Positions 49,680-61,841 of a DNA stretch of 64,000 bases are shown here, in pieces (the first letter of the stretch is position 1; each line of letters opens with the position of its first letter). The position numbers were made by a program, and so were the translations under genes. A model generated the notes under the pieces. The model had not been told where the DNA came from and searched no databases. It was given only the letters and a program-made list of their open reading frames with translations. This DNA is from Lysobacterales bacterium PRO7 (lineage in GTDB: Bacteria; Pseudomonadota; Gammaproteobacteria; Xanthomonadales; Rhodanobacteraceae): positions 52,241 to 116,240 of the forward strand of contig QWHH01000007.1 in NCBI GenBank assembly GCA_021404785.1, read 5' to 3'.

Positions 49680-50228
49680 CTACGGTTCGAACCCGTTGAC
49701 GAAGATCACGTCAGATGACCAAGGCACGGTTTGACCATATACGCGCGTGCCGAGAAGATCTGCCTGCGGTGCGGCGGTGAGTTGATTATCGGTCGGCTCG
49801 GTCGTGCCAGTAATCGTCAGTGCGTATGCCGCGAACAAATAGAAATGTGTCTGACCGTCAGGGGGTGCGCACGGGCCGCCGTAACCGTACGTTCCAAACT
49901 GATTATTTGCTTGTGTGCCAGCCGGCATTGTCGAAGCGTAGTTGTAGGGCAATGACACGCTCGTTCCGGAAACCGGAATACCCCACGCATACCAATGAAG
50001 CCACGGGTTGGTTATATCGTACAGCTGGATTGCTAGTGTATTTGTGCCGGCTGGGATGCCGGATATTGCTAGCGGCGGGGACCAGTTGTTTCCGCCCGTG
50101 CACTGCCCCGGGGGGCCTTGGTTGTATTGAAACGGATCAGGAATCGGATTGCCATTGATAAAGGCCGACGAAGTAATGCTCATCTGGGCGCTCGCCGCGG
50201 TGGCGACAAGGATGGAACCGAATATCAA
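49680..50228 (-). CDS. secreted PEBP (YbhB/YbcL) family protein, 5' end possibly disrupted
   Basis: The product resembles phosphatidylethanolamine-binding proteins: LHWYAWGIPVSG, and YGGPCAPPDGQTHFYLFAAYAL, the ligand-site motif. It ends VIFVNGFEP. The only in-frame start after the last stop is a TTG at 50228, giving a signal peptide without a basic n-region (MIFGSILVATAASAQ). A better start is the ATG at 50261, with AAGGA upstream, encoding MLRFA followed by an in-frame TAA (50244-50246) and then SAIRRLIFG. This suggests a nonsense mutation in codon 6. The local GC content is visibly lower than in neighbouring genes. Confidence 0.7.
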   Translation of the reverse strand: MIFGSILVATAASAQMSITSSAFINGNPIPDPFQYNQGPPGQCTGGNNWSPPLAISGIPAGTNTLAIQLYDITNPWLHWYAWGIPVSGTSVSLPYNYASTMPAGTQANNQFGTYGYGGPCAPPDGQTHFYLFAAYALTITGTTEPTDNQLTAAPQADLLGTRVYGQTVPWSSDVIFVNGFEP

Positions 50229-50376
50229 TCGACGAATGGCGGATTAGGCGAAGCGCAGCATTGCTATTCCTTCATGGGGAACGACAGTAAACGCCTCGCA
50301 GCATAGCCATGCGACGAAAGTGGGCAATCAGAAAAATTCCTACCTTGCGCACCCGTCTGCGCGCGACAATGCCCGC

Positions 50377-50991
50377 ATGATCCGCATCGCACTCACCGAC
50401 GACCACGCCATCGTGCGCACGGGTTTCCGTGCGCTGATCGAGCGCGAGGCGGATATGACAATCGCGGCGGAGTGCGGTTCACTGGCGGATGCCGAACGTG
50501 CGCTGACGGATCACACGGTGGATGTGCTGGTGCTTGATCTGACCCTTCGCGGCGAAAGCGGAATCGAGGCGTTGCCGTCGCTGCGCGCTCGCTTTCCGGC
50601 GCTACGCATCCTCGTCATGAGCATGCACGAGGGCGAATCCTACGTGGACGAGGCGCTGGCGCGCGGCGCGGATGGTTACGTGACCAAGGCGGTCGCGCCG
50701 GATGAGTTGGTGACGGGAATCCGCGAAGTGATGGCGGGACGGCGCCATCTGAGCAGCGATCTGTGCGGACGCAAATCCGTCGCAGTGCCACTCGACCGGC
50801 TCAGCGCGCGTGAGCGCGACGTATTCCTGCTGCTGGCGCACGGCAAGACGACCAAGCAGGTGGCGGATGCGCTCGGCGTCGCGGCGAAGACGGCATATGT
50901 GCATCGCGCGCATGTGCTGGAAAAACTCGCCGCGCGCAACGACCGCGAGTTGTACCGTATCGCGCTGGCGTGTGGGTTAATCGGCGCGTGA
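50377..50991 (+). CDS. NarL/UhpA-type response regulator
   Basis: This 204-residue regulator has a receiver domain with D54 in LVLDLTLRGESGIEAL, acidic D8/D9, and Lys in GYVTKAVAPDEL. A LuxR-type HTH follows: LSARERDVFLLLAHGKTTKQVADALGVAAKTAYVHRAHVLEKL. It is the probable partner of the HisKA_3 kinase at 47819. The start at 50377 (MIRIALTDDHAIVRTGF) is typical of the family. Confidence 0.93.
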   Translation: MIRIALTDDHAIVRTGFRALIEREADMTIAAECGSLADAERALTDHTVDVLVLDLTLRGESGIEALPSLRARFPALRILVMSMHEGESYVDEALARGADGYVTKAVAPDELVTGIREVMAGRRHLSSDLCGRKSVAVPLDRLSARERDVFLLLAHGKTTKQVADALGVAAKTAYVHRAHVLEKLAARNDRELYRIALACGLIGA

Positions 50992-51026
50992 TTGCCTTGT
51001 GTTGCCGATTGTGTAAGGATTGACAC

Positions 51027-51230
51027 ATGGCAACCAATCTCGCTATCGACGAACATCTGCTCGAACAGGCGCTGCGCGCGGGCGGGCATCGCACTAAGAA
51101 AGCGACGGTGAACGAGGCGCTGGCCGAGTACATCCGTCGGCGCCAGCAACTCGGCGTAGTCGCGCTGTTCGGCAAGGTCGATATCGATCCGCGCTACGAC
51201 TACAAGAAGCAGCGGCGCGTGAAACGGTGA
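51027..51230 (+). CDS. vapB: VapB-type antitoxin (second TA locus)
   Basis: The 67-residue protein starts MATNLAIDEHLLEQALRAGG, followed by KKATVNEALAEYIRRRQ (ribbon-helix-helix N-terminal fold) and a short toxin-binding tail DPRYDYKKQRRVKR. This matches the VapB group that pairs with PIN toxins. The stop overlaps the toxin GTG (GTGA). Confidence 0.9.
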   Translation: MATNLAIDEHLLEQALRAGGHRTKKATVNEALAEYIRRRQQLGVVALFGKVDIDPRYDYKKQRRVKR

Positions 51231-51634
51231 ATGTGCTGGTCGATACCTCGGTATGGTCGCTCGCCTTGCGTCGCAAGGCGGCGCACGCCGGGGACGAAGC
51301 GCGGGCGCTTGCGGAGCTGATCCGCGAAGGCCGTGTGCTGATGATCGGCCCGGTGCGTCAGGAACTGCTTTCTGGAATCCGCGACAAGGCGCAGTTCGAT
51401 GCGCTGCGTGAGCATTTGCGCGCGTTCCCGGATGAGCCCTTGCACGAACCCGATTTCGAGCAAGCCGCCGCCTGTTACAACCGATGTCGCGAAGGTGGTG
51501 TGCAGGGATTGAATACGGATTTTTTGCTCTGCGCTGTTGCGTTGCGACGCAAGATTCCGGTATTCACCACAGACAAGGATTTCGACCGGTATGCCGTTGT
51601 GCTTGGCCTGCAGCTTTATCGACCGACGCAGTAG
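51227..51634 (+). CDS. vapC: PIN-domain toxin VapC (second TA locus)
   Basis: This 135-residue PIN-domain protein has D6 in MNVLVDTSVWSLALRR, E46 in GPVRQELLSGI and the C-terminal acidic cluster in GLNTDFLLCAVALRR and PVFTTDKDFDRYA. The start is a GTG overlapping the antitoxin stop. It shares little with the VapC at 47081 beyond the PIN core, so the two modules are independent acquisitions. Confidence 0.92.
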   Translation: MNVLVDTSVWSLALRRKAAHAGDEARALAELIREGRVLMIGPVRQELLSGIRDKAQFDALREHLRAFPDEPLHEPDFEQAAACYNRCREGGVQGLNTDFLLCAVALRRKIPVFTTDKDFDRYAVVLGLQLYRPTQ

Positions 51635-51661
51635 TCGCGGAGCAATATCGGGAGCTAAGCA

Positions 51662-52012
51662 TCAATCCGACCGACCATGCTCCAGGTGAAACCGGTGCAG
51701 GAACCGGTGCACGATGGGCGCGAAGATGATGCCGGCGATCGCAATCACCATGAAGCCGCAATACAACGCGTAGAGTCCCGCGAATAGCTTGCCACCGGCC
51801 GTGTGCACCGGGTCGACCGGTCCCATACCACCGAGCAGCATCGACGCGTTCACGAATGCATCGAGCCACGAAAGATTTTCGAGGATGTGGTAGCCGAGCA
51901 TCCCGATGACCAGCGAAACGATGATCAAGCCTGCGCCAACAGTCGCGCAGCGGACAAGACGGCCGAAAAATTTCTGGCGCGGCAGCAGCGGGTCGGTGCG
52001 GTGTTCGAACAC
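51662..52012 (-). CDS. two-TM membrane protein of unknown function
   Basis: From a GTG at 52012, 5 bp after the purB stop, the frame gives 116 residues (VFEHRTDPLLPRQKFF). There are two strong transmembrane helices (GAGLIIVSLVIGMLGYHIL; YALYCGFMVIAIAGIIFAPIV) joined by a loop WLDAFVNASMLLGGMGPVDPVHTAGGK. The layout resembles a two-TM ion-channel subunit with a re-entrant loop, but the selectivity filter TVGYG is absent. The C-terminus is His/Arg-rich. The start is uncertain. Cotranscription with purB is likely. Confidence 0.65.
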   Translation of the reverse strand: MFEHRTDPLLPRQKFFGRLVRCATVGAGLIIVSLVIGMLGYHILENLSWLDAFVNASMLLGGMGPVDPVHTAGGKLFAGLYALYCGFMVIAIAGIIFAPIVHRFLHRFHLEHGRSD

Positions 52013-52017
52013 GTTGC

Positions 52018-53427
<1,410 letters not shown>

Positions 53428-53428
53428 T

Positions 53429-53434
53429 TATAAT
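53429..53434 (+). promoter_or_regulatory. consensus -10 (TATAAT) upstream of fumC
   Basis: TATAAT lies 38 bp before the fumC ATG in the 87-bp divergent gap with purB. No good -35 is visible at 16-18 bp. The purB promoter must lie in the same gap. Confidence 0.45.
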
Positions 53435-53472
53435 CGCCGGCCGATTCCTGACCTGATTTTTGGAGTTTTTCG

Positions 53473-54867
<1,395 letters not shown>

Positions 54868-54960
54868 CGTGCCGAACGTCGCATGCCTGCAGATGCGGTC
54901 GTGGCAGACGTGCAAACCGTTTTTTATACCGAGTGGTTCAACAGGGTGCCGGAGATGAAA

Positions 54961-56097
54961 ATGTACAGATTTATACCTTTTGTCGTGCTGTTGTTTGCCG
55001 GCAGCGCGCTGGCGCAGCAAGTCGATGTCAATGGCAAGGATTTCCTGTCCGGCGCGGGCGACGCCAAGCTCGCCGCCATCGCGCAGCAGGCGTCTGCTGC
55101 CGGAAAATCGCTGGAAGTGACCGCGCCGTCGTACTGGCAGGCCAAGGTCGCGGCCAAATTGCACGCCGGCGCCGCGAATGTGCCGATCAAGGAAAACGAC
55201 GGTTTTTTCGAAAATGTACTGGTAAAGATGGTCGAGGCCGCTCCGGCAAAACCGGCGGCGCCATCGGCTGATGCCTCCGCAGCGAAGGCTGCGGCGGAAA
55301 AGGCTGCTGCGCAAAAGGCCGCCGAAGAAAAAGCCACGCAGGAAAAAGCCGCTGCCGAGAAGGCGGCTGCTGCGCGCGCGGCAGCTCAGGCGGCCGCTGC
55401 AAAGGCAGCCGCGGAGCAGGCTGCCGCGGACAAGGCTGCGGCCGAAAAGGCGGCGGCGGACAAACTGGCTGCAGAACAAGCCGCTGCTGCGAAGGCAGCC
55501 GCGGAAAAAGCTGCAGCGGAAAAGGCCGCTGCCGACAAGCGCGAGGCCATGCGCAATAGCATGCTCAAGAATCTCAATGGCGGCCGCCCCGCCGAAGGCG
55601 ACTTGCAGGCTGGCCAACTGCTCGCGGGCGACGTGGTTTATGTCGATGGCGACCTGCGCGGCGTCGTGCGCCGCGGCAGTTCACGCTTGCAGTTCTACTG
55701 GCTGCAAGGTGACCTGAATCTGGAACGCATCGAGCTGGCGCCGAATGGCGAGGGCCGTTACACGGTGGTGCGCGCGATCGACATGAATGCGACCCCGGTG
55801 TTGCGCACGCGCAGCGGCGGCACGCTGGCAGCTGCCGTTCCGGCATCGGGTTCGCAAGCGCGCAAGTCCTTGCAGGATCAATACGCGGATGGGCGCGAAG
55901 TTGTCGATTCGCTCAAGCCCGTGGATCTTCGCCAGGGCGACACGCTTTACACCGGGCAAGGCGCCGCGCTGGTGGTACGGCGCGTTGGCGGACAGCTGGC
56001 GCGTTTCTGGCTGACCGGCTCGCTGGACCTTGGCCAGATCGGCCTGCAGAGCCAGGGCGGTAATGTGTACAAGGTTCTTTCCGACACGATCAAGTGA
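54961..56097 (+). CDS. periplasmic protein with Ala/Lys/Glu-rich coiled coil and duplicated C-terminal domain
   Basis: The 378-residue protein has a signal peptide (MYRFIPFVVLLFAGSALA). A small N-terminal domain (20-95, containing VDVNGKDFLSG and APSYWQAKVAAKLHAG) precedes a TolA-like alpha-helical stretch of AAAEKAA/AAADKAA repeats (about 101-195). Two copies of a beta-rich module of about 60 residues follow: 212-270 (EGDLQAGQLLAGDVVYVDG, LQFYWLQGDLNLERIEL, GRYTVVRAI) and 310-375 (DLRQGDTLYTGQGAAL, ARFWLTGSLDLGQIGL, GNVYKVL). I recognise no family. The long helix could span the periplasm. The start at 54961 has GGAG upstream. An ATG two codons earlier is possible. Confidence 0.72.
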   Translation: MYRFIPFVVLLFAGSALAQQVDVNGKDFLSGAGDAKLAAIAQQASAAGKSLEVTAPSYWQAKVAAKLHAGAANVPIKENDGFFENVLVKMVEAAPAKPAAPSADASAAKAAAEKAAAQKAAEEKATQEKAAAEKAAAARAAAQAAAAKAAAEQAAADKAAAEKAAADKLAAEQAAAAKAAAEKAAAEKAAADKREAMRNSMLKNLNGGRPAEGDLQAGQLLAGDVVYVDGDLRGVVRRGSSRLQFYWLQGDLNLERIELAPNGEGRYTVVRAIDMNATPVLRTRSGGTLAAAVPASGSQARKSLQDQYADGREVVDSLKPVDLRQGDTLYTGQGAALVVRRVGGQLARFWLTGSLDLGQIGLQSQGGNVYKVLSDTIK

Positions 56098-56108
56098 CCG
56101 ATGAAGCG

Positions 56109-56131
56109 CGGGCCGCCGCTATGGCGGCCCG
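56109..56131. terminator. GC-rich hairpin between convergent genes
   Basis: CGGGCCGCC-GCTAT-GGCGGCCCG lies between the stops of the coiled-coil gene and the convergent lipoprotein gene. No T run follows, so termination is uncertain. Confidence 0.4.
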
Positions 56132-56142
56132 TGCCGGTCCGT

Positions 56143-56664
56143 TCAGTCGGGTTTGCAATCGTCCACTTCGCGCTGCCCTATTGTCGCGTAGGGTTTGAAC
56201 GACGGCACCGCGCTGGCGAGATCGTCCTGCGCCTTCGCCAGCATTTGCAAATCGACGCAAAGCTTGTTCGCCGCGGCGTCGACCTTTGCCGCGCTCGCGT
56301 TCACCTTCGCATCGATCGAGTCGGTATCGCCCGAGGCCAATCCCGCGGCGACGCTGGTGATCGCGGTCGCCGCAGTGGCTGCACCTGCAGCACCAGTCTT
56401 CACGGCGTCGCTGCGTAGCGCCATGGCGCTGGTGAAATAGCGCGCCACGATTTGTGATTGTGCCGCATCCAGCGTGACGGGCTTGCCGTCGATCAGAAGG
56501 TCGCCCTGCGCCGACACGATCGCATCCGTGCCGGCATGCGCATGCACCGCGATGCGGGTGTCGCTGAGCACGCTCAAATGCTGGAATACCGAGTCGTCAT
56601 ATTGGACGCAGCCAGCGGCGGCGACCGACAACGCAGCAATGCAAAGGATTTTCGTCGTGATCAT
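56143..56664 (-). CDS. lipoprotein of unknown function (weakly DUF2884/YggN-like)
   Basis: The 173-residue protein has a lipoprotein signal peptide, MITTKILCIAALSVAAAGC, with Cys19 as the lipidation site. The motif AIVSAQGDLLIDGKPVTLDAAQSQIVARYF resembles the conserved part of the DUF2884/YggN group. An Ala-rich helix follows (KTGAAGAATAATAIT, NASAAKVDAAANKL), and the C-terminus is KPYATIGQREVDDCKPD. The start at 56664 has GGAGG 8 nt upstream. Function is unknown, and the family link is tentative. Confidence 0.65.
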   Translation of the reverse strand: MITTKILCIAALSVAAAGCVQYDDSVFQHLSVLSDTRIAVHAHAGTDAIVSAQGDLLIDGKPVTLDAAQSQIVARYFTSAMALRSDAVKTGAAGAATAATAITSVAAGLASGDTDSIDAKVNASAAKVDAAANKLCVDLQMLAKAQDDLASAVPSFKPYATIGQREVDDCKPD

Positions 56665-56682
56665 GATCTCATCCTCCATCGA

Positions 56683-57099
56683 TTACGCAAGAGCTCGTTT
56701 CGGCCAGGTCCACGCATACCAGATGGTCAGTAATCCGATTGCGATCTCCAAGGCACCCAAGAGAATGTAAAACGACCATGCCCCGGGCATGGTCAAGGCC
56801 ATGATGGCAATGTAGGCAGCAGCCAAAATGATGTTGAGCCAGCGGGTCAGTTTTGGCGGCAAAACCAGCGAAAGAAACACCATGATGCCCGGGACCGCCA
56901 GCATGATCGAGGTGGCAATCAAGGTGTTTTGACTAACGGGCCCAAAGGGTCCTTCGCCGGCGAGCATTCCCTTTAGCTTTCCCGGGACATAAAGGCCGAA
57001 GTAATCGCCATAGATGTAGCAAAACATCAAGGTAGCCCAAAGTGCAGACAATTTGATCCGCACGTGTACCTTCAAGTCGTCCAGATGTGCAGTAGCCAT
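56683..57099 (-). CDS. four-TM membrane protein, probably DUF6326 family
   Basis: The 138-residue protein begins MATAHLDDLKVHVRIKLSAL, then ATLMFCYIYGDYFGLYVPGKL and three further hydrophobic helices, ending WYAWTWPKRALA. The first-helix pattern with YGDYFGLYVPG fits my memory of DUF6326-type proteins. Function is unknown. GC content is lower than in the flanking metabolic genes. It lies 36 bp downstream of the DUF4386 gene in the same direction. Confidence 0.65.
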   Translation of the reverse strand: MATAHLDDLKVHVRIKLSALWATLMFCYIYGDYFGLYVPGKLKGMLAGEGPFGPVSQNTLIATSIMLAVPGIMVFLSLVLPPKLTRWLNIILAAAYIAIMALTMPGAWSFYILLGALEIAIGLLTIWYAWTWPKRALA

Positions 57100-57135
57100 A
57101 GGGTCCCAAGGTGGATTGTTGAATGGAGAGGTGGA

Positions 57136-57816
57136 CTAACGCGCGTGGCGTGCACGCACGCCGACTACGAGCAGCCAGAGACAAATGCCGATTTCGCCCG
57201 CTGCGGCCGGGAACAACACGAAATCCGGGAAGCGGATAGTCGGAACGAGGACTTCCCAGAACACTTGGGCCACATAGCCAAGACCACCGAGAAACAGAAG
57301 GATGCCGAGGATCTTTGGCAGGAACCCGGACCGTATGACCAGGCATCCGAAGGGGAGCAACCAAAGCCCCCAAAACAGGGTTGCGACCAACAGGCCATTG
57401 CCGTAAGCGTTGAGGGCCAGCACGGCATGCGATTGAATCTGGTTTGGTGAGAGCGCCTGACTGTACGAGCCACCGATGATATCCAGCACATCCAGCCGAT
57501 TCGTCAAACTGACCAAAGCGATCGGCACGCTGACAGCGGCGAGCGCTACCATGAGGACCGCCATGCTTTGGTGAACGGGACGCAGCAGTTTGAACAGCGC
57601 GAGCGGCAGGAGCAGAAACGCCACTTGCTTGATCAGGAACACCGCGATGCCGGCTCGAAACAAGGAGTTGTGAGCGACGATGTTACCGACGGTTGCATGG
57701 GCATCGCCGGACACGTTGACCTGGGAAGGCACATACAAAAGGCTGAACAGACCGGTCACGACCACGACGAGGTAAATGGCACCGGCCAATCTGCTGATCT
57801 TGTTTTCGTTGCTCAT
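57136..57816 (-). CDS. DUF4386 family integral membrane protein
   Basis: The 226-residue protein has about six transmembrane helices. It begins MSNENKISRLAGAIYLVVVVTGLFSLLYVPSQV and continues FRAGIAVFLIKQVAFLLLPLALFKLL, NAYGNGLLVATLFWGLWLLPFGCLVIRS and LPKILGILLFLGGLGYVAQVF, a typical DUF4386 pattern. Function is unknown. It lies 22 bp after the ABC permease gene in the same direction, so it may be the tail of that operon. Confidence 0.85.
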   Translation of the reverse strand: MSNENKISRLAGAIYLVVVVTGLFSLLYVPSQVNVSGDAHATVGNIVAHNSLFRAGIAVFLIKQVAFLLLPLALFKLLRPVHQSMAVLMVALAAVSVPIALVSLTNRLDVLDIIGGSYSQALSPNQIQSHAVLALNAYGNGLLVATLFWGLWLLPFGCLVIRSGFLPKILGILLFLGGLGYVAQVFWEVLVPTIRFPDFVLFPAAAGEIGICLWLLVVGVRARHAR

Positions 57817-57838
57817 CGATAAATTCCGTTGCGTGAGA

Positions 57839-58834
57839 TTAGGAATACGCTTCCACGCGCTTGCGCCGCAGCCAGATCGCAGCGGCGATCATGGCGAGGC
57901 CAGCGGCGACACCGATCACGAAATTCGCGCTGGCCATCCGGTCGGCAATCGCGCCGAACGAGAACAAGTTGCTCAGTGCTATCGACGGATCCGCGCCGGC
58001 ATGGTCGAGCGACTTGAGGCTTTCGAGATTGATCCAGCTTTCCGGAATCAGGCTCAGCAGCACTCGACCGATGACGTGCTGCCAGAACCAGCCGCTGTGC
58101 AACGAGAACGATTGCATCAACTGCATCCAGGTGATGATCACGCCGGTGACGACCGGCAGCATCACCGCCCACAGGAACGGCTTGGAGCGCGCCCAGGCCG
58201 AGCACAGCAGCAGCCAGCCCATCGTCGGCAGCGCCCACAGCGCGTTGACCGGAATCAGCACGGCAAACTTGATCCACATCGCTATCAGATGCGTCGGCGA
58301 CCAGAGATACGGCAGGGCGTTGATGCCGTGCAGCGCCGCATACAACGTGAACAGGATCAAAAAGCCCAGTTGCAGCACGATCATGCCGAACACGGCGAGC
58401 GCCGGCGCGAGGATTAGCCCAGCGGCGACCTTCGACAACACCGTTTGCGTATCCGACAGCGGCAGCGACTTCCAGAACAGCACGCTGCGGTCGGCGCGGT
58501 CGTTGTACAACGCACCGAGCGCGTAGAAGAACACGACCACGAACAGGGCGATGCGGATCGGCATTCCCATCGTGATCAGGCCGACGTCGAGCGCGCCCTG
58601 GAACTTGGCCATGTCGTCCGCGTCGATATGGCTGGTGAGCTGATCGATATGAATGCCGTTCAGGGTGAAGCCGGCTCTTTGCGCGGTGAGTTCGGCAGTC
58701 ACCAGGCCCATTGCGATGAAGGCGAGCATGACCAGCGCGATGATCACCGGAGTCCACAGGAATCCGCCGCGGTGTTCCCAGAATTCGCGCTTGATCTGCC
58801 AGAGGAATTTGCTCGAAGGAGTGATGGCGTTCAT
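57839..58834 (-). CDS. ABC-2 type transporter permease
   Basis: This 331-residue inner-membrane permease has about six transmembrane helices (GGFLWTPVIIALVMLAFIAMG, IRIALFVVVFFYALGALYNDR, ILAPALAVFGMIVLQLGFLILF, WAVMLPVVTGVIITWMQ, NFVIGVAAGLAMIAAAIWLRR). A sizeable periplasmic loop follows helix 1, and DRADRSVLFWKSLPLSD is an ABC-2 coupling motif. The start overlaps the ATPase stop by 4 bp. The substrate is unknown. GntR/YtrA-type operons of this layout often respond to cell-envelope antibiotics. Confidence 0.88.
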   Translation of the reverse strand: MNAITPSSKFLWQIKREFWEHRGGFLWTPVIIALVMLAFIAMGLVTAELTAQRAGFTLNGIHIDQLTSHIDADDMAKFQGALDVGLITMGMPIRIALFVVVFFYALGALYNDRADRSVLFWKSLPLSDTQTVLSKVAAGLILAPALAVFGMIVLQLGFLILFTLYAALHGINALPYLWSPTHLIAMWIKFAVLIPVNALWALPTMGWLLLCSAWARSKPFLWAVMLPVVTGVIITWMQLMQSFSLHSGWFWQHVIGRVLLSLIPESWINLESLKSLDHAGADPSIALSNLFSFGAIADRMASANFVIGVAAGLAMIAAAIWLRRKRVEAYS

Positions 58835-59688
58835 GCGTACGTTCCTTTCATGGTCGCGACGAACAGATCGGCGACACTCGGTTTATGCAATTCGCCCAGT
58901 TCCGCCAGGCGCGACTTGTCGATGCCGTCGAACAGGAAAATCGACTTGCCGAAGATCTGGCGCTCGTACAGCGGCTTGAGCGTGCGCGCCGCATCGGCCT
59001 TGTCCGGATTGACCATGACTTCGGCGAAACGCTCGCCGACGTCGTCCATGGTGGCATCGAGCACAATCTTGCCTTCCTTGATGAACAGCAGGTCGGTGAG
59101 GATGTGTTCGATCTCCTCGATCTGGTGCGTGGTCACAAGGATGGTTTTCTGCTCGTCGAAATAATCGCTGAGCAGGTTGTTGTAGAACTCCTTGCGATAC
59201 AGGATGTCCAGGCCCAGGGTCGGTTCGTCGAGGATCAGCAATTTCGCGTCGATCGCCATGACCAGGGCCAGGTGCAATTGCACGATCATGCCCTTGGACA
59301 GTTCGCGTACGCGCTGGGTCGGCTTGATCTTGGTGCGTGCGAGCAGTTTTTCGCATTTCTCGCGCGAGAAGCGCGGATGCACGCCGCCGACGAAATCCAC
59401 CGCATCACCCACGCGCAGCCAGCGCGGCAGCACGGCCACGTCCGCGATGAAGCACACCTGTTCCATCAGTTGCGTGCGGTGCGTGCGTGGGTCCAGACCG
59501 AGCACGGACAGCGATCCGTCGAATTCCGCCAGGCCGAGGATGGCCTTGAGCGCCGTGGTCTTGCCGGCGCCGTTTGGGCCGACCAGGCCGACGATGCGGC
59601 CAGCTTCGATGTCGAAACTGACATTGTCCAACGCCACCGTGTTGCCGTAGCGCTTGGACAGTCCCTTTGCCTGCACGACGGCGGTCAT
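58831..59688 (-). CDS. ABC transporter ATP-binding protein
   Basis: This 285-residue ATPase has Walker A in GLVGPNGAGKTTALKAILGL, the signature region RELSKGMIVQLHLALVMAIDAKLLILDEPT (LSKGM in place of LSGGQ, a form common in YtrB-like subunits), and the H-loop TTHQIEE. The C-terminal 60 residues are an extra regulatory segment. It overlaps both the GntR gene and the permease gene by 4 bp, so the three are translationally coupled. Confidence 0.94.
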   Translation of the reverse strand: MTAVVQAKGLSKRYGNTVALDNVSFDIEAGRIVGLVGPNGAGKTTALKAILGLAEFDGSLSVLGLDPRTHRTQLMEQVCFIADVAVLPRWLRVGDAVDFVGGVHPRFSREKCEKLLARTKIKPTQRVRELSKGMIVQLHLALVMAIDAKLLILDEPTLGLDILYRKEFYNNLLSDYFDEQKTILVTTHQIEEIEHILTDLLFIKEGKIVLDATMDDVGERFAEVMVNPDKADAARTLKPLYERQIFGKSIFLFDGIDKSRLAELGELHKPSVADLFVATMKGTYA

Positions 59689-60056
59689 GGCTTTTCTCCC
59701 GTGTTTTCAGCGTTCTTGACCAGTGTGGCCAAGTCCAGGTTCATGCGCTGGATGCGCGCGAACACGGCGGGCCATTCTTCCTTCAGGAATCGTTCGCGCT
59801 CGGATTTCATCAGCGCCGCGCGTGCGCCTTCGCTTACGTACATGCCCAGTCCCCTGCGTTTTTCCACGAGTTGTTCGTCCACGAGTTCCTGATATCCCTT
59901 CGACACGGTGATCGGGTTGAGTTGGAAGTCGGCCGCGACCTGGCGCACCGAGGGCAGCGCGTCGCCGGGCTTGAGCACGCCGTCCAGAATCATCGCCACC
60001 ACGCGGTCGCGCAGTTGGCGGTAGATCGGCGCGTTGTCGTTCCAGGTGATACTCAT
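59685..60056 (-). CDS. GntR-family (YtrA subfamily) transcriptional repressor
   Basis: The 123-residue protein begins SITWNDNAPIYRQLRDRVVAMILDGVLKPGDALPSVRQVAADFQLNPITVSKGYQELVDEQLVEKRRG, the GntR winged helix. It ends with a short helical tail of about 45 residues, as in YtrA regulators. It starts 2 bp after the stop of the gene at 60059. It probably represses its own operon through the palindrome over the promoter at 60462-60483. Confidence 0.94.
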   Translation of the reverse strand: MSITWNDNAPIYRQLRDRVVAMILDGVLKPGDALPSVRQVAADFQLNPITVSKGYQELVDEQLVEKRRGLGMYVSEGARAALMKSERERFLKEEWPAVFARIQRMNLDLATLVKNAENTGEKP

Positions 60057-60058
60057 GC

Positions 60059-60430
60059 TTATTCCTTGGCGCCGATGCGCGGCAGAACCTTGCCGAAGGA
60101 ATAGTAGGGCATGTCCAGGCGCGCGCTGGCCGAAGGTTTGTTCGTCGGCACGCCGGCGTCAACTTCGAACACGGCATGGATGAACATTCCCGTTCCCGAG
60201 GGTACGGAGGGTTGCGCCGCCGCCATGCGCTGCGCCAAGGTGGGTCGCACATGGATTGTCGGCAAGGTCACGGGCTCGGCGACGCTGACCGTATGGGGTT
60301 TCACGGACAATGTCGGCTTGGCGGTAAATGCTTCGGCTGGCTTTGCATGGTTCAGCGCAATGCCGGCGGCCATTGCCAGGCCGGCTGCGATCGAAACGCT
60401 GGCGCGGATCAGCAGGGCTTGCAGGTTCAT
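60059..60430 (-). CDS. small secreted or membrane-anchored protein of unknown function, first gene of the ABC operon
   Basis: The 123-residue protein starts MNLQALLIRASVSIAAGLAMAAGIALNHA, a signal or anchor segment. A proline/threonine-rich region follows (KPTLSVKPHTVSVAEPVTLPTIHVRPTLAQRM), and the protein ends LDMPYYSFGKVLPRIGAKE. No family is recognised. The start has GAGGAG at good spacing and the promoter and operator are directly upstream, so it is the leader gene of the operon with the GntR regulator, ATPase and permease. It might be an accessory or sensing protein for the transporter (inference). Confidence 0.75.
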   Translation of the reverse strand: MNLQALLIRASVSIAAGLAMAAGIALNHAKPAEAFTAKPTLSVKPHTVSVAEPVTLPTIHVRPTLAQRMAAAQPSVPSGTGMFIHAVFEVDAGVPTNKPSASARLDMPYYSFGKVLPRIGAKE

Positions 60431-60461
60431 GGTGGACTCCTCTTGGTGAACTGTAGTACTA

Positions 60462-60501
60462 GTGTTGTATGTAAGTATAACACCTAGACGAGACTTGTCA
60501 A
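60462..60501 (-). promoter_or_regulatory. strong promoter with overlapping GntR-type operator
   Basis: On the minus strand a perfect TTGACA (60496-60501), a 16-bp spacer and TATACT (60474-60479) form a near-consensus sigma-70 promoter for the operon. An imperfect palindrome (60462-60483) with outer arms GTGTT / AACAC and inner TA/TA pairs covers the -10. That is the layout expected for autorepression by the YtrA-type regulator encoded second in the operon. Confidence 0.8.
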
Positions 60502-60563
60502 GCACCCAATTGCAATCCGGTATAACCTGAGTATCCGCAGTGGGTGTTTTCTGGGGGAGAATC

Positions 60564-61841
60564 ATGCGCAGAATCCTTTGCGCGACCGTCGTTGCGCTTG
60601 CTTCGCAGTCGTTACCGGCACAAAGCTGCACCGGCCTGTGCCTGCAACAACAAATCTGCCCGGGTGGCGGCAGCACGACGGTCAGCGGGACCGTCTACAT
60701 GCCCAACGGGACCGTGCCGTTGCCCAATGCGCTGGTGTACGTGCCGAACGCGCCTGTCGCAGCATTTACGCCAGGCGTGGCCTGCGACAGTTGCTCGCCC
60801 AGCGGCTCGCCGCTGGTCAGTGCGATCTCGGGCCCGAACGGCACTTTTGCCATCACCAACATGCCGGTTGGCGCGAACATTCCGTTGGTGATCCAGGTCG
60901 GCCGCTGGCGTCGGCAGGTCGTCCTGCCCAACGTCGTGGCGTGCGTGAACACGCCAGTCCCGGCGTCGATTTCACGCTTGCCGCGGACCAAGGCCGAGGG
61001 CGATATCCCGCTGACTGCTGTCGTGACCGGCAATGTGGACGCGGAGGAGTGCCTGCTGCGCCAGATTGGCATGGACGACGCTGAATTTACCAATCCCTCC
61101 GGCAACGGGCGAATCCGGTTCTACACCGGGAGCGCTCCCGGTGGCGCAGGCGCCGTGATCAACGTCAATACGCCGGACGAAACGAATCTGGTTGCTTCAC
61201 AGGCGGCCATCAACCAGTACGACGGCGTCCTGATGAATTGCCAGGGCATTACGGCAAATCCGTCGGCGGCTGCGAAAGGGTATTTCACCGGTTTCCTGAA
61301 CAGCGGTGGCCGCGCCTTGATGTTTCACTTCGCCGACGGCTATTTGCAGAACAATCCACCGCTATCGTCGTTGGTGACCTGGAACCCCGGTGCGGGCGGC
61401 ATCACCAGCGACCCGCAGACCGGATACATCGACACTGGCGACGCGGACGGTGCGAGGTTCGCACAATGGCTCCAGCTCGTGGCCGGCGGAACCTACGGTC
61501 AGCTCACGTTGGGCCTGTTGCGCCACGACTACGATGGCGTCATCGCGCCTGCGGTCAACCGGATCAGCCTGAACCAGTCCGGCCAGATCATTCCGCAGCA
61601 ATTCAGCTTCAACGCACCGGTCGGTGTTCCGGCCGGCAGTCAATGCGGGCGCGTTACGTTTCTCGACAATCATCCGGTCTACACGTCGGGTACTGCCGGC
61701 ATAACGTTTCCTGCCGAATGCACCGCCGGGCCGATGACTGCACAGCAATTGGCCGCTGCCTACACGTTGTTTGAGACGGAAAACTGCCTCGCAGGAGCTT
61801 ACGATCGCATTTTCGCCTCGGGATTCGAAACGGGGGGCTGA
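60564..61841 (+). CDS. secreted protein with carboxypeptidase-regulatory-like domain and C-terminal GFE motif
   Basis: The 425-residue protein has a signal peptide (MRRILCATVVALASQSLPAQS) and a Cys-rich start. A beta-sandwich like the carboxypeptidase regulatory domain follows (VSGTVYMPNGTVPLPNALVYVPN, FAITNMPVGANIPLVIQVGRWRRQVVL). The long C-terminal region (GQITANP-like YDGVLMNCQGITANPS, GGRALMFHFADGYL, FLDNHPVYT) looks like a glutamine-amidotransferase-type Rossmann fold without an obvious nucleophile. It ends AYDRIFASGFETGG. Function is unknown. GGGGGAGA precedes the ATG at 60564. It is divergent from the ABC operon. Confidence 0.72.
   Translation: MRRILCATVVALASQSLPAQSCTGLCLQQQICPGGGSTTVSGTVYMPNGTVPLPNALVYVPNAPVAAFTPGVACDSCSPSGSPLVSAISGPNGTFAITNMPVGANIPLVIQVGRWRRQVVLPNVVACVNTPVPASISRLPRTKAEGDIPLTAVVTGNVDAEECLLRQIGMDDAEFTNPSGNGRIRFYTGSAPGGAGAVINVNTPDETNLVASQAAINQYDGVLMNCQGITANPSAAAKGYFTGFLNSGGRALMFHFADGYLQNNPPLSSLVTWNPGAGGITSDPQTGYIDTGDADGARFAQWLQLVAGGTYGQLTLGLLRHDYDGVIAPAVNRISLNQSGQIIPQQFSFNAPVGVPAGSQCGRVTFLDNHPVYTSGTAGITFPAECTAGPMTAQQLAAAYTLFETENCLAGAYDRIFASGFETGG

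Follow-up and report, generated by a model that had tools for sequence, protein, structure and literature searches.

Among the C-terminal signals described for exported bacterial proteins, GlyGly-CTERM is a short one, found on many unrelated exported hydrolases in genomes that also have a type II secretion system (T2SS), according to the accessible parts of two reports (PMC3237569; PMC13393428). As described there, it works by way of a membrane segment together with a rhomboid protease and needs a separate T2SS signal (PMC13393428; PMC3237569), and rhombosortase marks no particular T2SS subclass in the accessible text of the 2011 report (PMC3237569). In type IX secretion, the available part of one report describes a C-terminal signal that is borne by proteins with a signal peptide and is required for outer-membrane crossing (PMC12618676). 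For the T2SS itself, the accessible parts of recent work call cargo selection elusive or poorly understood and place the signals known for Pel3 (loops) and VesB (an Ig-fold) within the cargo, that of VesB being read via the PDZ domain of EpsC/GspC (PMC7949064; PMC12369372). The present report deals with a window of 64,000 nucleotides (the whole stretch of DNA that was analysed) from Lysobacterales bacterium PRO7, contig QWHH01000007.1, in which two secreted-looking proteins end in a common motif, I-F-x-x-G-F-E. This motif is the core of a nine-residue tag that recurs, at the C-terminus, on diverse exported proteins of a single order among the genomes sampled, and that is co-distributed with one T2SS subclass.

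By analogy, GlyGly-CTERM/rhombosortase is the nearest relative in logic, as one short tag sits on many unrelated exported proteins and a T2SS co-occurs. However, inspection by eye of 165 tagged proteins, gathered from the PRO7 genome, its relatives and named genomes, found no GG motif, membrane helix or basic tail, and the present tag follows one T2SS subclass, whereas rhombosortase follows none in the accessible text of PMC3237569. PEP-CTERM/exosortase shares the many-to-one logic and the choice-of-anchor cargo, the difference again being that the 165 tails are without PEP motif, membrane helix and basic tail. The comparison with both systems, already drawn in an earlier note on this DNA, holds at the level of logic (a single tag shared by unrelated cargos, choice-of-anchor domains among them) but does not extend to the build, and the absence of helix and basic tail stated in that note is borne out by the tail anatomy. 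Exosortase (PF09721) was found in 18 of 40 genomes, was absent from the PRO7 genome and 12 other tagged ones and was present in some tag-free ones; it was rejected as tag partner since its distribution does not track the tag.

The likeness to type IX secretion lies in a C-terminal signal on proteins bearing a signal peptide. That signal is a folded domain and belongs to the Bacteroidota, in contrast with the nine residues found here; no Por-secretion C-terminal domain model was matched in 10 tails (NCBIfam, Pfam) or among the 25 commonest families of 106 tagged proteins. Regarding Pel3 and VesB, the information would in all cases be held in the cargo and read by the T2SS; theirs are composite or folded signals of single proteins, whereas here one linear tag is common to many. 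GspD, too, has a role in T2SS cargo recognition.

Recurrence and C-terminal placement of the tag

In the PRO7 genome (2.8 Mb, 19 contigs), the strict pattern I-F-x-x-G-F-E gave 24 matches at the DNA level against none for the reversed pattern used as background control, and the looser F-x-x-G-F-[DE] gave 77 against 15, with an in-frame stop at most 18 codons away for 33 of the 77. Eighteen of the 24 strict matches end at most 12 residues after the E, where about one would be expected under an assumed 13/300 per site (binomial P 3e-20). The same holds in relatives, since 20 stretches chosen regardless of stops contained 24 strict copies, 22 of them with at most 11 residues after the E; the remaining two are the first of a tandem pair (20 residues after E) and a copy 120 residues before the stop (L094). 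The original observation is confirmed and understated the case: many more genomic copies had been predicted from two examples, and 32 tagged proteins are found in this genome alone, at a frequency and with a C-terminal placement far above chance.

Consensus and anatomy of the tail

Tagged proteins were collected as open reading frames (ORFs) of at least 50 codons with the motif at most 19 codons from the stop, one row per distinct tail, and tail lengths are conditional on that; loci from L102 onward were found with a stop-containing pattern and are uninformative on C-terminal placement. The consensus reads D-x-[ILV]-F-x-[ND]-G-F-[ED], usually followed by 0-6 residues. Among the 32 PRO7 tails, D stands two positions before I in 84% and N or D precedes G in 90%; as both positions lie outside the loose search pattern, their conservation adds to the motif. 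Upstream of the D nothing is conserved, and downstream of the E 0-6 residues follow in 31 of the 32 PRO7 proteins, and 0-12 after the last E in the 165 tails. Neither a lipobox nor a cleavage-type motif was seen in the tagged tails. Tandem double tags occur at the tail of five of the 165 proteins (L049, L096, L101, L124, L181).

That no named tag has such a sequence, as the earlier note had supposed, is borne out: in 10 tails searched against Pfam and NCBIfam, the tag lay outside every model, and no description of the motif or of a named tag was found in the literature searched, which covered few subscription papers. Three of these 10 tails matched choice-of-anchor Q in the part preceding the tag, each below the cut-off for the 39-residue piece, and one matched DUF6990, likewise below cut-off. 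In L042, the choice-of-anchor Q match stops at residue 27 of the 39 and the tag forms the last nine. The name of the choice-of-anchor domains was given because species place different anchors behind them, and in L042 it is the tag that takes that place.

Taxonomic distribution

Of the 250 genomes of the order, 93 contained the extended pattern D-x-x-I-F-x-x-G-F-E, at up to 70 copies, and two its reversed control. Outside the order, a sample of the phylum gave one match each in 13 of 338 genomes and never two, with the control in five. Among the sampled genomes, the Xanthomonadales/Lysobacterales, with Marinicella, Dokdonella and Rudaea among them, are the only group in which the tag exceeds background. 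When named genomes were scanned with a pattern containing the stop, at least 118 stretches were returned, 80 of which were characterised by record title. Among the 80 listed, 51 were Marinicella (27), Dokdonella (4), Rudaea (2), Pseudofulvimonas (1) or other Lysobacterales (17), 13 were bins labelled Proteobacteria, Pseudomonadota or Gammaproteobacteria, six were labelled Alcanivoracaceae and 10 belonged to other phyla; these last could be at chance level for so large a collection.

Cargo and export signals

The earlier note had named membership of one ordinary domain family as a way for its reading to fail, and this possibility does not stand, as the 165 tagged proteins, with the tail trimmed off, fall into 84 clusters (57 with a single member), and the 32 of PRO7 into 21. 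For the family search, 108 of the 165 were chosen (at most two per cluster) and 106 searched, L195 and L208 being dropped as doubtful short ORFs; 71 NCBIfam and 103 Pfam families were matched, the 25 commonest of each being described here. They comprise choice-of-anchor Q (7), D (3) and B (1) domains, delta-60 and SBBP repeats, beta-helices, S8 and M64 peptidases, ExeM/NucH and endonuclease I nucleases, and glucose/sorbosone dehydrogenase-like proteins. Besides, one tagged PRO7 protein matched a GH44 glycosidase model, well below cut-off.

A Sec or Tat signal peptide, as expected of T2SS cargo, was scored with a crude home-made rule rather than a trained predictor: of the 125 tagged proteins whose starts are complete, 102 passed the stricter form, versus 153 of 476 untagged nearby ORFs, and the lenient form discriminates less (116 of 125 versus 274 of 476). 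A twin-arginine scan of the tagged set gave one in 125, with a dubious start, and two tagged DUF1501 proteins of other genomes (L280, L290) have KRR at the start, one of them just under the TAT_signal cut-off. Both of these come from genomes where Xps-like GspD alone was found.

Co-distribution with a T2SS subclass

In a secretin search of 68 genomes, 67 had a GspD of some type; any T2SS whatsoever was rejected as correlate of the tag for this reason, and only the T2SS subclass is informative. The tagged genomes of the window's family carry in addition a second, higher-scoring GspD. A tree of 40 GspD rows consists of clade A (25 rows, canonical, hereafter type A) and clade B (15 rows, Xps-like). 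Clustering of the 25 clade-A stretches recovered a gspE-like ORF in 21, a gspC-like one in 13 and a gspF-like one in 10, gspC being masked by antisense ORFs in some stretches, that of PRO7 included; ORFs read by eye as rho, rhlB, ftsE and ftsX accompany 8-10 of the 25. In PRO7, the gspC-gspD-gspE genes (Table 1) lie directly behind an rhlB-like gene, and GspC matches T2SSC above the Pfam cut-off and PDZ just below it.

When a clade-A profile was run over the 250 genomes of the order, at least two tags were found in 66 of 110 genomes with type A versus 10 of 140 without (Fisher 3e-20), the type-A bit-score line having been drawn after seeing the list, with sixteen f2 genomes bearing a 440-575-bit GspD scored as not type A and with fragments and the 650-712-bit genomes of other families scored as type A. 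Seen from the tag, type-A GspD is present in 66 of the 76 genomes with at least two tags, type-A-like fragments in four (G118, G123, G167 and G212; interpreted as such from their bits per position in a laxer search, with two located at contig ends) and neither in six.

Within the window's family (234 genomes), tags were counted with a tag-plus-stop pattern ending in TRR, that is the three stops plus TGG. At least three matches were found in 43 of 44 type-A genomes versus 8 of 190 others (P 1e-37), with G720 and 16 genomes of divergent GspD scored as not type A; counting G720 as type A gives 43 of 45, and counting all of them 43 of 61. For genomes at least 90% complete, the figures are 33 of 33 versus 5 of 163. 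The 44 type-A genomes hold 1-20 matches (median 8), and 173 genomes without type A have a median of 1 and a maximum of 15, the highest counts coming from incomplete bins that belong to tagged genera. G720, at 792 bits to the type-A profile, has one match, and the 16 genomes with a divergent GspD (612-683 bits) have 0-2 only. This divergent GspD belongs to G230 and its relatives (genus g16) and to part of genus g11, where tags are at background, and in the tree the sampled G230 pairs with an f2 GspD on a long branch.

The pattern repeats at smaller scale. In the window's genus, 11 type-A genomes have 3-14 tag-plus-stop matches versus 0-2 in the six without type A. In family f2, true type A occurs in two of 53 genomes (G091 and G237), which hold 24 and 26 C-terminal matches with none in the control, and three other f2 genomes tested, without type A, gave 0, 2 and 1 matches versus 5, 1 and 2 in the control. 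In family f9, the sole tag-free genome of 33 sampled (G019) is without T2SS GspD. Two f7 genomes that appear tag-free by the strict pattern have type A, together with 3 and 7 relaxed C-terminal matches (0 and 1 in the control). Regarding the co-occurring secretion gene that the earlier note had proposed to look for, the best match is one T2SS subclass, the canonical gspC-gspD-gspE.

Proposed role and alternative explanations

The explanation that we favour, with modest confidence, is that the nine-residue tail is a linear C-terminal address tag for cargo of the canonical (type-A) T2SS. The cargo would enter the periplasm by a Sec (occasionally Tat) signal peptide and fold there with the short tail left exposed; the exposed tail would be recognised by the canonical gspC-gspD-gspE T2SS, most likely through the periplasmic part of GspC (HR or PDZ domain) or through GspD, and the folded cargo would then cross the outer membrane. 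Recognition of the tag by the T2SS, the component responsible for it and the destination of the cargo are what we infer; of the unnamed sorting or processing tag suggested earlier, the tag itself stands, on its recurrence and unrelated carriers, and sorting is the conditional part. As a matter of speculation, a tiny beta-hairpin or an added strand would be compatible with the I-F / [ND]-G / F-E layout. An address label for the type-A T2SS is the simplest account, as it covers an exported, diverse and hydrolase-rich cargo, the dependence on T2SS subclass, a tail lying beyond the folded domains and the missing membrane anchor. The bolder claim that these nine residues alone act as a portable linear T2SS signal, marking unrelated folded proteins for one subclass, is held tentatively, as plausible rather than probable. 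If true, T2SS cargo would be predictable from sequence in the order Xanthomonadales/Lysobacterales, with a cargo list for genomes where many tagged proteins are without a match to any known family; since named strains exist in Marinicella and Dokdonella, removing or grafting the tag there would make T2SS cargo choice directly testable.

Several observations weigh against an address tag for this T2SS. First, co-distribution is a form of correlation, and genomes that are related do not count as independent, so that the data amount to about three independent contrasts (the window's genus, f2 and f9) rather than hundreds; the admission of TGG by the TRR ending also adds background to the tag-plus-stop counts. 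Second, 27 of the 30 genomes of genus g28 (f10) have type A; the strict tag is missing from 24 of these 27 and numbers 1, 1 and 2 in the others, and nine of these type-A genomes gave 8 relaxed matches versus 9 in the control; a type-A machine does not, therefore, need the tag, and g28 may have lost the tag naturally while keeping the machine. In the GspD tree, g28 (e.g. G009 and G044) groups with G163, which has 19 strict matches. To our knowledge, T2SSs elsewhere function without such a tag. Third, tags occur where no type A was found, namely in the near-complete f8 genomes G063 (with four of its five matches at the C-terminus) and G097 (two of two), in six more f8 genomes carrying a single C-terminal tag (G056, G092, G122, G147, G171, G216), in G048 (3 of 3 matches C-terminal), in the tagged incomplete genomes G059, G178, G182, G609, G699 and G767, and in G769, a complete genome of the window's family with four tag-plus-stop matches, which, like several incomplete bins, is a possible further exception. 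Two of the C-terminal tags of G063 and G097 sit on DUF1501 proteins with twin-arginine-like starts, and the single matches of G096 and G203 (f2) and of G125 (f1) are internal and look like chance.

The placement of the motif is not uniform either. Six of the 24 strict PRO7 matches are not C-terminal (L034, L041, L044, L067, L070, L072), and relatives have further copies early or mid-protein (L281, L094); the L044 copy stands directly behind the signal peptide. By eye the hosts of the six look exported, and the impression is that the motif can function or be maintained away from the C-terminus. One of the six lies inside a subtilase-like protein, and the L070 copy between beta-sandwich-like and cellulase-like domains. 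Finally, no recurrent neighbour gene marks a dedicated reader, as no family was found in more than four loci among 727 ORFs around tagged genes, 100 tagged ORFs having been left out of the clustering. The most recurrent neighbour families (at most four loci) are by eye unrelated to sorting. Near the tagged genes of L146, L148 and L213, an extracytoplasmic function (ECF)-type sigma factor and a large Ser/Thr-kinase-like protein were read by eye.

The main rival, which we consider unlikely, is that the proteins leave by the T2SS on structural signals and that the tail then serves as a surface-retention handle by binding polysaccharide, lipopolysaccharide or an outer-membrane protein. Choice-of-anchor domains and adhesin-like repeats among the cargo speak for such a handle, tandem tags suit binding, and the accessible text on GlyGly-CTERM provides a parallel in proteins that stay at the surface after T2SS exit and have a separate T2SS signal (PMC13393428); the lack of membrane helix, lipobox and cleavage-type motif, the many cargos resembling soluble enzymes and the missing neighbour gene speak against it. 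Less likely still is another envelope factor (a protease, chaperone or transporter) gained and lost together with the type-A T2SS. It would accommodate the tagged f8 genomes where type A was not found and the background tags of g28, and as the profiles covered T2SS secretins and exosortase, other correlates are possible; the correlation with type A is nevertheless very tight in the window's genus, its family and f2, and exosortase does not track the tag. Very improbably, the tail merely guards exported proteins from C-terminal proteolysis or aids folding, with no sorting role; its shortness, its position at the extreme end and the absence of a conserved flank fit this notion, which predicts neither a dependence on T2SS subclass nor a restriction to the exported proteins of one order. 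Hardly any credence is due to chance or to a single ordinary domain family, given 24 matches against none, 84 clusters and codons that vary across AT-rich and GC-rich genomes in the match list.

The two window proteins

Coordinates of the two tagged proteins of the window and of the type-A T2SS genes of PRO7 (the latter on locus L222) are collected in Table 1. In the PEBP protein, the Pfam PBP match spans residues 44-149 (E 2.3e-21), so that the tag falls outside the domain, and the score against TIGR00481 is above cut-off; its C-terminus is SSDVIFVNGFEP (D-V-I-F-V-N-G-F-E-P). The second protein ends in AYDRIFASGFETGG (D-R-I-F-A-S-G-F-E-T-G-G). The IFxxGFE ending noticed earlier is common to both, its full common form being D-x-I-F-x-x-G-F-E, and the two are otherwise unrelated as had been claimed, since the best BLASTP segment between them is the nine-residue tail itself (E 0.25), with nothing better.

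Table 1. Positions of the tagged window proteins, their tags and the type-A T2SS genes of the PRO7 genome (G000)
Feature	Coordinates	Strand	Remarks
PEBP/YbhB-like (Raf kinase inhibitor-like) protein, exported-looking, tagged	49680..50228	minus	Pfam, TIGR00481, sequence
C-terminal tag D-V-I-F-V-N-G-F-E	49686..49712	minus	residues 173-181, then P-stop; = G000:C3:101926-101952
Second tagged protein, exported, unknown fold	60564..61841	plus	ORF 60540-61841, ATG at 60564; Pfam matches all below cut-off
C-terminal tag D-R-I-F-A-S-G-F-E	61803..61829	plus	then T-G-G-stop; = G000:C3:114043-114069
Clade-A gspC	L222:7696-8589		PRO7 genome; above NCBIfam cut-off
Clade-A gspD	L222:8618-10684		PRO7 genome; above NCBIfam cut-off
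Clade-A gspE	L222:10681-12162		PRO7 genome; above NCBIfam cut-off

Signal peptides had been ascribed to both proteins; the second is an exported protein, but the claim is weaker for the PEBP gene, the start of which is uncertain. Its ORF opens with TTG at 50228 (or a rare ATT), shortly behind an in-frame TAA, and on the minus strand between 50228 and 50258 this TAA separates the nearest upstream in-frame ATG from the signal-peptide-like stretch; judging from the sequence, the gene would either start at TTG/ATT or be interrupted. An AlphaFold model of the PEBP protein from the single sequence was set aside as too poor for use (mean pLDDT 49, last blocks 26-27). As for the second protein, a tagged relative with 48% identity is encoded elsewhere in the genome (L057:925-2208).

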